From positions 1 through 36,087 of the IMG/VR virus record IMGVR_UViG_3300034073_002360: 36,087 bases of DNA. One strand, given 5' to 3'. The position numbers and the translations under genes are program-made. This document shows positions 8,517 through 24,380 of this stretch, piece after piece. The notes below the pieces were generated by a model. It had not been told where the DNA came from. It saw nothing but the letters and a program-made list of their open reading frames with translations, and searched no databases. Position 1 is the stretch's first letter. Each line of letters starts with the position of its first letter. This DNA comes from a virus.

Positions 8517-8542
8517 CAAGTCTCCCCATGCTCCATCTCCAC

Positions 8543-8576
8543 AAAAAAAATCTGCCCCCACCGCGCGGACTGGGGC
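8543..8576 (-). terminator. Terminator-like hairpin with U8 between HNH and terminase genes
   Basis: The minus strand reads GCCCC (8576-8572), a 13-base loop containing CCGCGCGG, GGGGC (8558-8554), then AGA and eight T residues (8550-8543). This is the shape of an intrinsic terminator or attenuator, placed only 27 bases before the terminase start inside an otherwise continuous operon. It could set the ratio of upstream to downstream transcripts, or be part of the cos region, which in cos phages usually lies near the terminase genes. Confidence 0.45.
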
Positions 8577-8595
8577 GCCCTCCCACCAGCTGAGG

Positions 8596-8952
8596 TCAGC
8601 CCCCCCTTTGACTTCTCCTGTGTGCGTGCGTGCGCCCGTGGCATACGCGGCAGAGCGTCTCTAGGTTGTCCAGGTCCAGCGCCCTCGTTGCGTCTTGGTG
8701 GACTTCGATGTCGTGATGGACGATGAGCTGCTGCGTTGTGCCGCAGCGCCTGCATCGGTACTCGTCACGCGCTAGGGCTGCTGCCCTTACCTTCTTCCAC
8801 GCTGCTGTGCCGTAGATGCGTTGGCGCTGTAGCTGTTCGGGTGTCCACTTGCGGCGGCGGCGATGGCCTCGACCGAAGCTCGGCGGCCTTGCACACGCGG
8901 CGCATACCGGGCTCGTCAGGTTCTCGTGCAGACAGCCGCAGCTGTTGCACAC
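8596..8952 (-). CDS. HNH endonuclease next to terminase
   Basis: A 118-aa protein with Cys pairs at the N-terminus (CNSCGC, CAACARPP) and a classical HNH nuclease core: WKKVRAAALARDEYRCRRCG, then VHHDIEVH, then DLDNLETLCRVCHGRTH. The second Cys set (CRRC...CRVC) would hold zinc. HNH proteins encoded beside large terminases are known to take part in cos cleavage with terminase and portal in HK97-like phages, so that role is likely here. I chose GTG at 8952; TTG codons at 8967 and 8997 would add 5 or 15 residues and overlap the upstream gene. Confidence 0.85.
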   Translation of the reverse strand: MCNSCGCLHENLTSPVCAACARPPSFGRGHRRRRKWTPEQLQRQRIYGTAAWKKVRAAALARDEYRCRRCGTTQQLIVHHDIEVHQDATRALDLDNLETLCRVCHGRTHAHRRSQRGG

Positions 8953-12051: not shown

Positions 12052-12254
12052 TACCTGCGACGGGCAAGCAGCCCGATCTCCGTCATCAACTGCTCAAGGC
12101 GGGCGACCTTCTGTCCAAGACTGTCGCGCTCTGACCGCAGCTCGCGCTCAGCCTGGTTGTAGCCGACGCGGTAGGCCTTGCTGGCGTCCATTGTCGGCAC
12201 AATTCCCGCGCGCTGAAGCGCGCCATGTATCTGTCCTTGGCCTTCGGCGTTCAT
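12051..12254 (-). CDS. Small coiled-coil protein
   Basis: A 67-aa protein with an N-terminal polar part (MNAEGQGQIHGALQRAGIVP) and a heptad-patterned helix (AERELRSERDSLGQKVARLE) ending in Arg-rich residues. ATG at 12254 overlaps the stop of the methyltransferase gene (ATGA). Function unknown; it may be a partner of a neighbouring DNA-binding protein. Confidence 0.6.
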   Translation of the reverse strand: MNAEGQGQIHGALQRAGIVPTMDASKAYRVGYNQAERELRSERDSLGQKVARLEQLMTEIGLLARRR

Positions 12255-13744
12255 GCGGCCTCGTCCAATAGTCCGAGTTGCCCTGACTGCTTAACCTCGT
12301 CACGTACCCCAGCGGCGCGCATGATGTCGTCGGTGTCGCCTTGGGCCTGATGCTTCTCCCACCAAGCGATGCGCGCCTTGGCAATCTGCGCGTATTCGGC
12401 CTCGCGCTCAACGCCGACAAACTCAAAGCCCTCTAGGACCGCAGCGCAGCCCGTTGTGCCGCTGCCGGTAAACGGGTCAAGGACGGTGCCGCCCGGCGGG
12501 GTGACGAGCCGGCATAGGTAGCGCATCAGCTCTATTGGCTTCACGGTCGGATGCGCGTTGCGCTGAGGCTGGACACCTTTTTGCTCAAAGGTTCGCATCC
12601 CGGTTTCGGTTCTGTTATCGGGACGCTTGACCTCAAACCCGTCTAGCCCGGCGTTGCGCTCAGCCTTAGAGCTCTTGGCGCAATAAAAGAAGCGGGACGC
12701 GCCGCCGGAGTCGTATTCAATGCGAGCCTCGCGTTGCACGCCAGCGCGTTCGCCGCCGGCGGTATAGACACTCCCAAACCCGACGTTGTTGCTCTTAGGC
12801 GCTGCGCCAGGAGCACGCTCCCCGCTCTGCTCGTCTAGGAGCCGCCCGGCTTCCTCGTCCATCATCACGTTTGCGGGCCAGCGGCCACTAGCGGCCGTCC
12901 ACCCGCCCGAGCCATCGCCACCGCTCACCGTTTCCTGTGTCCCAAACGTCGCCGTTCGATGCCCTGCGCTCGGCTCGTCACCCGGCGCAATCCCTATCCG
13001 GCATCCGTCAATGTTCAGCGCGCCCGTCCCAAACTCCAACACGTTCGCCGCAACCGTCCCTGCCAGCGGCTTACGGGCAACGACAATCGGCTCGTGCGCC
13101 GGCTTCAGGGCGGTTCCCCACCCCTCCCACCTCTTCGCGCCGTCGGTCACAGGCGCATAGCCGTAAATAGGCGTGTCCACAAACTCAGCTGGATCAGCAC
13201 CCGCAGGGGTTGCCATTCGAGCACTTCTTCCGTCGGCGGTGCGACGGGCGCGTCCTTGAGCCATCCTGATAACGCCGGTCCGTCCGTCCTCTCCCGCCGC
13301 CTTGTCAATCGCCTTCCCCACATTCAGCGACTTAGGAAACCCCGACCCATAAAGCCACATCATCTGATCCCTGACCTCAAAGCCTGCGTCCTCAACCGCG
13401 CACGCAAGGCGGTGATACGTCCGGCTCCCACCGAAAGCCAACAAGTGACCCCCAGGCTTGAGGATGCGCAGGGCTTCGGCCGCCCACAGCTCGCACCAAG
13501 CCTGAAAGTGCTGGTTGCCGCTGAGCGACAGGTCGTAGCTGCCAGCATGCATTGAGGCGCTGCGCTCCCGACTCTTGTGATGATCGCCGCCTGCGTTCTT
13601 CGACGCTTGAGCTATCGCCTTGCCGTCCCACGCCTTGCCCATGAAGTTGATGCCGTAGGGCGGATCTGTTACGACGGCATCGACGCTTGCCTCGGGCATC
13701 TCGCGCATCGCCTCAACGCAATCGGCCTCAATCAGCCGCCACAT
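12251..13744 (-). CDS. DNA methyltransferase, DPPY type (N6-adenine or N4-cytosine)
   Basis: A 497-aa enzyme. The catalytic motif DPPYGI is near the N-terminus (residues 27-32) and the S-adenosylmethionine-binding motif DPFTGSGTTG near the C-terminus (423-432). This order of catalytic then AdoMet motif is the beta class. HPTVKPIELMRYLCRL precedes the latter, as in CcrM-like enzymes. The central 200 residues (about 180-380) are probably the target-recognition region. ATG at 13744 overlaps the HNH stop (TGATG). It modifies phage DNA, most likely against host restriction. Target sequence cannot be read. Confidence 0.9.
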   Translation of the reverse strand: MWRLIEADCVEAMREMPEASVDAVVTDPPYGINFMGKAWDGKAIAQASKNAGGDHHKSRERSASMHAGSYDLSLSGNQHFQAWCELWAAEALRILKPGGHLLAFGGSRTYHRLACAVEDAGFEVRDQMMWLYGSGFPKSLNVGKAIDKAAGEDGRTGVIRMAQGRARRTADGRSARMATPAGADPAEFVDTPIYGYAPVTDGAKRWEGWGTALKPAHEPIVVARKPLAGTVAANVLEFGTGALNIDGCRIGIAPGDEPSAGHRTATFGTQETVSGGDGSGGWTAASGRWPANVMMDEEAGRLLDEQSGERAPGAAPKSNNVGFGSVYTAGGERAGVQREARIEYDSGGASRFFYCAKSSKAERNAGLDGFEVKRPDNRTETGMRTFEQKGVQPQRNAHPTVKPIELMRYLCRLVTPPGGTVLDPFTGSGTTGCAAVLEGFEFVGVEREAEYAQIAKARIAWWEKHQAQGDTDDIMRAAGVRDEVKQSGQLGLLDEAA

Positions 13745-23301: not shown

Positions 23302-23613
23302 GTGGAAACGTTGGGGGAGCGGTTGCAGCGGCTAATCAAAGAGCGCCAGTACGGCAAGCCGCTGTCCAAGATCGCCAAGGAGGCAGGCGTCGACTTGCAG
23401 ACCCTGCAGAACGCCATCGAAGGCAAGACGCAGCCGCGCTTCCCCACAATGGAGAAGCTGGCCGCCTACTTCCAGGTCAGCGTCGAGTATCTGATGACCG
23501 GCGAGGGCTCACCCGAACCCCCGCCGGCCGATAATGCTCAGATCAAGGCCAGGATCGCTCAGCTCAAGCAGCTGATTGACGAGCTGGCCGAAGACGTCAA
23601 CCGCACCGACTGA
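23302..23613 (+). CDS. Repressor (XRE/Cro-CI type helix-turn-helix)
   Basis: A 103-aa protein with an XRE HTH domain in residues 1-68: LIKERQYGKPLSKIAKEAGV, DLQTLQNAIEGKTQPRFPTM, EKLAAYFQVSVEYLMTGE. Residues 75-98 form a helix that may dimerise (AQIKARIAQLKQLIDELAED). No peptidase domain for RecA-driven self-cleavage. It is the only clear plus-strand gene and is divergent from the early operon, as an immunity repressor should be. The GTG start lacks a good ribosome site (AGGCG is too close), so a leaderless message is possible. Its 3' end overlaps the 23559-23771 gene on the other strand. Confidence 0.85.
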   Translation: METLGERLQRLIKERQYGKPLSKIAKEAGVDLQTLQNAIEGKTQPRFPTMEKLAAYFQVSVEYLMTGEGSPEPPPADNAQIKARIAQLKQLIDELAEDVNRTD

Positions 23614-23771
23614 CAGCAGCGCCTGAGCGACTGCTCAAGCTCTACTAGCTGCTCGCGGAACGGATCGCTGTCGGGAACCTGCGGCAGCTTGCGCGCCATC
23701 AGGTCGTGCATCTCACTCAGTAGTGAGACGGATGAGGCTTCAAGCCCCCCCCCCCCACGATTTCTGTCCAT
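23559..23771 (-). CDS. Small gene with a G12 tract near its start (possible phase switch)
   Basis: A 70-aa frame: MDRNR, four Gly from twelve consecutive G, then LEASSVSLLSEMHDLMARKL and DPFREQLVELEQSLRRCCQS. The ATG at 23771 has GGGAGG five bases upstream, a strong ribosome site. Loss of one G gives a stop 9 codons past the tract, and one extra G gives a stop within two codons, so only a tract length divisible by three (such as 12) is read through. The last 18 codons overlap the repressor's 3' end antisense and read as low-complexity. Family not recognised. Confidence 0.55.
   Translation of the reverse strand: MDRNRGGGGLEASSVSLLSEMHDLMARKLPQVPDSDPFREQLVELEQSLRRCCQSVRLTSSASSSISCLS
23745..23756. 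repeat. Homopolymer C12 (G12 on the minus strand)
   Basis: Twelve uninterrupted C residues, the longest homopolymer I saw in the window. It occupies codons 6-9 of the small minus-strand gene. Such tracts slip during replication and are the usual basis of phase variation; they are also prone to sequencing and assembly errors, so the exact length is uncertain. Confidence 0.85.
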
Positions 23772-23858
23772 CTCAACCTCCCTGGTCAAAGTGACGATGG
23801 CGGCACTCTCACCGATGCCAAACGCCTTGGCTATGCGGAAAACTACGCAGGAACGACA

Positions 23859-23899
23859 AAAGCCCCCGACCGCCCGGAAGGAGGGCAGCCAGGGGCTTT
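23859..23899 (-). terminator. Intrinsic terminator after RusA
   Basis: AAAGCCCC (23859-23866) pairs with GGGGCTTT (23892-23899); an inner GCCC/GGGC pair (around 23871-23885) extends the hairpin. On the minus strand the stem is followed by TTTTG. It lies 86 bases past the RusA stop and would end the late transcript. The near-symmetry means it might also stop plus-strand transcripts from the repressor side. Confidence 0.7.
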
Positions 23900-23984: not shown

Positions 23985-24380
23985 TTAGTGACCTGCCTCG
24001 TGAACGGTGATCTCCGTTCGCGGCCTGCCGTAGCGCTTGACCGCCGACAGCTCAATGACGTGGCGATCGTCTTCAATGGCGCCGGCCTGCGTCAGAGCGT
24101 CCAGCGCGTTGCGGCTGTATTTGTCAACGTCGCCCGAGCGCGGCCAGGTCGGCTTGCTCTTCGGTTCCTCGAAGAAGAACGTGAGGACGACGTGGTAGGG
24201 CGGCACCAGCGGCCCGCCGTCGTGCTGCTCAGAGACGTGAGCTCGCGCGGCCTTGAGCCACTCGCTCGCTCGAGGGTTGCTCTCGCGGGAGTACGGTCGA
24301 CCGGACTTTGTGAAGCCTGAGACCCTGCTGCCTTTTGGCCTCGGGATGCCTTCGATGACGTAGGTGGCCGAGCGTCTCAT
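23985..24380 (-). CDS. rusA: RusA-like Holliday junction resolvase
   Basis: A 131-aa protein, usual length for RusA. Starts MRRSATYVIEGIPRPKGSRV; the catalytic region is GDVDKYSRNALDALTQAGAI followed by EDDRHVIEL, with the conserved Asp residues of the RusA active site (D, D and DD). RPRTEITV closes the fold. RusA resolves branched DNA before packaging. ATG at 24380 overlaps the preceding stop (ATGA). It is the last gene before the terminator. The third copy of the 18-bp palindrome lies in its 5' part. Confidence 0.9.
   Translation of the reverse strand: MRRSATYVIEGIPRPKGSRVSGFTKSGRPYSRESNPRASEWLKAARAHVSEQHDGGPLVPPYHVVLTFFFEEPKSKPTWPRSGDVDKYSRNALDALTQAGAIEDDRHVIELSAVKRYGRPRTEITVHEAGH
24290..24307. 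repeat. 18-bp palindromic site, copy 3
   Basis: AGTACGGTCGACCGGACT, a palindrome with one mismatch, inside the RusA gene. It differs at one position from the copy at 18954-18971 and at two from the copy at 11454-11471. The flank ACTTT is shared with copy 2. Confidence 0.55.

Follow-up and report, generated by a model that had tools for sequence, protein, structure and literature searches.

The stretch of DNA analysed here, referred to as the window, is a 36,087-bp IMG/VR record whose gene content includes an integrase, a portal, a terminase and an early region. Distant relatives detected through the terminase and the metallophosphoesterase are mostly phages of Actinomycetota, and from what is generally known of the data source we take the window and its relatives to be soil phages. 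The locus under study contains the following features.

23302 to 23613, plus strand: immunity repressor candidate of 103 aa with an HTH_3 domain (PF01381, 2.2e-08; PHROG repressor/regulator families to 7e-14)
23559 to 23771, minus strand: small gene carrying the tract, in frame at the assembled n=12 and then coding for 70 aa
23736 to 23746, minus strand: GGCTTGAAGCC, an 11-bp dyad adjoining the tract, conserved in relatives though read in a different frame
23745 to 23756, minus strand: G12 homopolymer, beginning after the fifth codon (C12 on the plus strand)
23777 to 23783, minus strand: ribosome-binding site of the tract gene, AGGGAGG, preceding the ATG at 23769 to 23771 (AGGGAG common to all four tract-bearing phages)
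23853 to 23880, minus strand: Rho-independent terminator-like hairpin, CTTCCGGGCGGTCGGGGG followed by CTTTTGTCGT, separating RusA from the tract gene
23985 to 24380, minus strand: RusA-like Holliday junction resolvase (PF05866), found upstream of this gene in each of the four phages

The 5' end of the small gene reads AGGGAGG-TTGAG-ATG, five codons and G12, after which the frame is open to 70 aa (translation MDRNRGGGGLEASSVSLLSEMHDLMARKLPQVPDSDPFREQLVELEQSLRRCCQSVRLTSSASSSISCLS, then a stop); the ribosome site, start codon, five codons, twelve G and open frame of the original prediction are thus all present. As had also been predicted, the gene converges on the repressor gene and overlaps it, the two lying tail to tail with 55 bp shared, and HTH repressors occupy the corresponding place in the relatives. 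The hairpin after RusA, whose counterpart in the relatives is similarly placed (judged by eye), indicates that the tract gene is probably a transcription unit of its own with its own promoter; no site scored in a scan that covers sigma-70-like promoters only. Between the tract gene and the repressor there is no obvious terminator, so that the convergent transcripts may overlap.

The G12 run is the sole G/C run longer than seven in the window; the homopolymers next in length are a single A8 and a single C7. A first-order Markov model with the dinucleotide content of the window predicts about 0.003 G/C runs of at least 12, which rules out a chance origin. An artefact of polyG sequencing or assembly, including the polyG reads of two-colour chemistry, was likewise excluded as the source of the tract, since three independent metagenome contigs share both the tract and its flanks.

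At another site in the window, positions 8540 to 8610, the contigs of seven of ten relatives (L004, L005, L006, L008, L010, L011 and L013) start no more than about 40 bases from the terminase start, and these contig ends adjoin the A8 and C7 runs of the window. The shared starts suggest a physical genome end (cos site) at 8540 to 8610, in which case the window would be a joined or permuted genome.

Relatives carrying the tract were collected in part by scanning the viral collection for GGGGGGGGCTTGAAGC. Four contigs matched, three of which have the tract locus; the fourth (L031) matched the DNA pattern and was set aside, having no detectable similarity to the window. The three relatives are as follows.

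L018 (G010), IMGVR_UViG_3300047551_001838: G10, also reached via the terminase (terminase 89% identical, repressor 49%)
L022, IMGVR_UViG_3300035670_001836: G11, also reached via the metallophosphoesterase (83-84%)
L030, IMGVR_UViG_3300046007_006311: G13, much more distant (metallophosphoesterase 33%, RusA 56%)

In all four phages AGGGAG and the ATG are followed, after exactly 15 bases counted from the ATG, by the G tract and then by CTTGAAGC, although L030 was retrieved by the tract and the adjacent eight bases, and the conservation of those eight bases there partly reflects how the hit was selected. Its synteny does not: the order metallophosphoesterase, 75-aa protein, 154-aa protein, RusA, tract gene and convergent HTH repressor is retained in L030 too, although its upstream proteins share only 32-56% identity with those of the window. 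The original prediction proposed a comparison of tract lengths among related phages and reckoned with relatives lacking both the tract and the frame; the lengths found are 10, 11 and 13, against 12 in the window, and all four phages carry the tract at the same codon.

The tract belongs to a narrower group of phages, since in two RusA relatives with 37-38% identity (L015 and L017) no long G/C run follows directly on RusA; the C9 run of L017 sits about 3.2 kb from that gene. Searching the annotated phage collection at the protein and DNA level (with the repressor and tract region and with the small proteins of L018 and L030) brought no further relatives, nor did the first contig pattern scan or the metallophosphoesterase scan. 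Among the four tract-bearing phages of the viral collection, none was found in two copies that differ in tract length.

Tract lengths of n=7 to n=14 were translated for the window, L018 and L022, and in all three phages a change of one unit destroys the frame. In the window n=9 and n=12 alone read through, to 69/70 aa, which agrees with the prediction that only lengths divisible by three keep the gene on. With n=11, translation stops after 17 codons, which is nine codons beyond the last whole GGG, so that the nine codons originally given for the loss of one G are right if counted from the end of the tract. Translation at n=10 and n=13 halts after 9-10 codons at the TGA in GCT-TGA, much as the TGA almost at once that had been described for one additional G. 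Reading through into the productive frame requires n = 0 mod 3 in the window and, owing to a one-base difference downstream, n = 2 mod 3 in L018 and L022, as well as in L030 by the same reading. As assembled, each length being a single assembly consensus that could be off by one, the window (12) and L022 (11) are in frame, while L018 (10) and L030 (13), being out of frame, run into the TGA and terminate there.

The dyad next to the tract (GGCTTGAAGCC; in L022 the variant GGCTTGAAGCT) supplies both the TGA stop of one of the "off" frames and a TTGA in which stop and start overlap. L018 and L030 both have n = 1 mod 3, and in them the early TGA shares bases with a TTG that could serve as a start in the productive frame. 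Translation begun at the same TTG in the window reaches a stop after eight codons, and reinitiation cannot therefore make the protein there.

The proteins encoded downstream of the tract are homologous in the three closest phages (window, L018 and L022), those of the two relatives being about 40-44% identical to that of the window. In the productive frame dN/dS is 0.28, 0.33 and 0.26 for the three pairs (Nei-Gojobori, a small sample of 40 codons, most of the overlap with the repressor gene lying downstream of them). Neither of the remaining forward frames had a comparable excess, and both contain stops in every pair. The antisense frames contain stops in at least one member; one of them has a weaker excess, as would be expected of a frame whose third codon positions lie opposite those of the productive frame. 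By these sequence comparisons, the downstream product is a real protein under purifying selection. The productive frame of L018 is conserved even though its G10 tract is out of frame, with the pattern S-S-x-x-x-L-x-E...LP-x-VP-x-x-DP....LV-x-LE-x-x-L-x-x-C, and a constrained frame kept in an out-of-frame phage fits a reversible switch.

An AlphaFold2 model of the window protein, built with three sequences, gives a two-helix hairpin (residues 10-31 and 39-60) with a core of moderate confidence (pLDDT 73-87), preceded by a disordered N-terminus. The product has no PHROG match and no significant Pfam match, a single hit to DUF6097 lying below threshold (E=0.012), and an antirepressor is hinted at by position alone. 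None of the four tract-gene proteins matched a known anti-phage defence family in PADLOC at E<=1. In L030 the protein after the tract (locus 12213-12451) has the same polyG start module and no detectable similarity to the other three; it is modelled, from its single sequence, as one long helix versus the helical hairpin of the window, and was not accepted as a homologue. Either the L030 protein has diverged strongly or the gene body has been exchanged behind a conserved tract.

The best explanation of these features, and one that we consider likely from the sequence comparisons, is a slippage-controlled (slipped-strand phase-variable) gene at the lysogeny locus. Among the other readings, the least probable is an ordinary glycine-rich N-terminus, in which the run would be a by-product of a GGGG linker and its lengths would drift neutrally. 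All four proteins do start M-x-x-x-x-GGGG when in frame, but the chance that four glycines would all be encoded by GGG is 5.5e-4 per phage, and lengths 10 and 13 put the linker out of frame. GGG accounts for only 15% of the glycine codons of the window genome (GGC for 64%), and this rarity, together with the GGG runs in all of the relatives, argues for selection on the homopolymer rather than on glycine. Moreover, a hypermutable tract that disrupts a selected gene should acquire synonymous interruptions unless its instability is useful, and no relatives were found in which a mixture of glycine codons encodes the same peptide. Also very improbable is a DNA or RNA element, the G run and the dyad serving as a protein-binding site or antisense feature that controls the convergent repressor, with the ORF incidental. 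Such an element would account for the conservation of tract-adjacent nucleotides in different reading frames and for the presence of the tract before a dissimilar protein in L030, and the transcript of the tract gene would indeed run antisense into the repressor. It would leave aside, however, the purifying selection on the three comparable ORFs and the retention of a strong ribosome site and ATG. The dyad, unlike many operators, is also unrepeated: a search for an operator array found no further exact copy in the window, and membership of such an array was discounted.

Leaky control, although unlikely, is a stronger contender than either of these. RNA-polymerase slippage, ribosome frameshifting or reinitiation at TTGA would then let the tract length tune how much protein is made or what N-terminus it has, and there would be no switch. 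In keeping with this, GGCTTGAAGCC is kept across relatives in different frames and yields the overlapping TGA and TTG, the two relatives that are out of frame (n=10 and n=13) fall in the class that stops at this TGA, and reinitiation in L018 and L030 could make the core protein without its N-terminus. The short TTG frame of the window speaks against it, as does the fact that standard decoding reads two members in frame; bacterial transcriptional slippage, for its part, has been surveyed chiefly on A/T runs (PMC1088944).

Under the phase-variable reading, DNA-polymerase slippage during replication of the phage or prophage would add or remove one G, and since in the window only n divisible by three joins the ATG to the downstream frame, each genome copy would make, or fail to make, a helical protein of roughly 70 aa. 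Flanked by the RusA terminator on one side and the convergent repressor on the other, the gene would be expressed as its own unit. Many Actinomycetota lineages lack MutS/MutL mismatch repair, which would favour homopolymer indels. Of the on/off switch at the lysis-lysogeny region that was originally proposed, the parts that find support are the conserved, slippage-prone and frame-controlling tract, the selected protein and the fixed place; slippage within populations, a promoter of its own and any lysogeny role are what we infer from them. The conserved position beside the repressor suggests that role, which could consist of modulating the repressor or the decision itself, or of a trait expressed during lysogeny. 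A direct effect on the repressor or on the lysis-lysogeny decision is plausible, if somewhat short of an even chance, and a phase-variable gene expressed in lysogeny, for example for superinfection exclusion, serves equally well as an alternative to lysis/lysogeny control.

More tentatively still, the four phages may represent a family of temperate soil phages with a polyG switch at the immunity locus, in which near-identical progeny or lysogens would differ heritably in lysogeny or superinfection immunity, and in which lineages would exchange the switched protein behind a retained tract and start. If true, this would amount to built-in bet-hedging for lysogeny or immunity in temperate phage populations, outside pathogens.

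Phase variation by polyG tracts is known in Campylobacter and other bacteria. NeuO, which modifies the host capsule, has a repeat unit that is different and longer than the one described here. NeuO of E. coli K1 resembles the present candidate in being a phase-variable gene on a prophage (PMC13001214); the two have no relation in sequence or position. No case of a polyG switch acting on a gene at a temperate phage's immunity locus emerged from the literature searched, whose coverage was incomplete, and such a gene appears to be new. In the pilus of Bifidobacterium breve, an intragenic G11/G12 tract sets the frame by replication slippage (PMC9187656). The likeness extends to the similar length of the G tract and to its occurrence in an actinobacterium, whereas the switched genes there are chromosomal, non-phage surface-pilus genes with no link to a repressor (PMC9187656). 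Lytic Campylobacter phages of the genus Fletchervirus switch their receptor-binding proteins on and off through polyG tracts (Sorensen et al. 2021, Cell Rep 35:109214, as cited in PMC8713573 and PMC11868660). They have in common with the present candidate that a hypermutable polyG tract apparently turns a phage gene on and off. The 70-aa helical hairpin, the lack of a PHROG match and the location beside the repressor do not accord with a tail receptor-binding protein in the window. The Fletchervirus tracts act on host recognition in lytic phages, in contrast to the tract described here, which precedes a helical protein of roughly 70 aa beside the repressor of an integrase-bearing, temperate phage.
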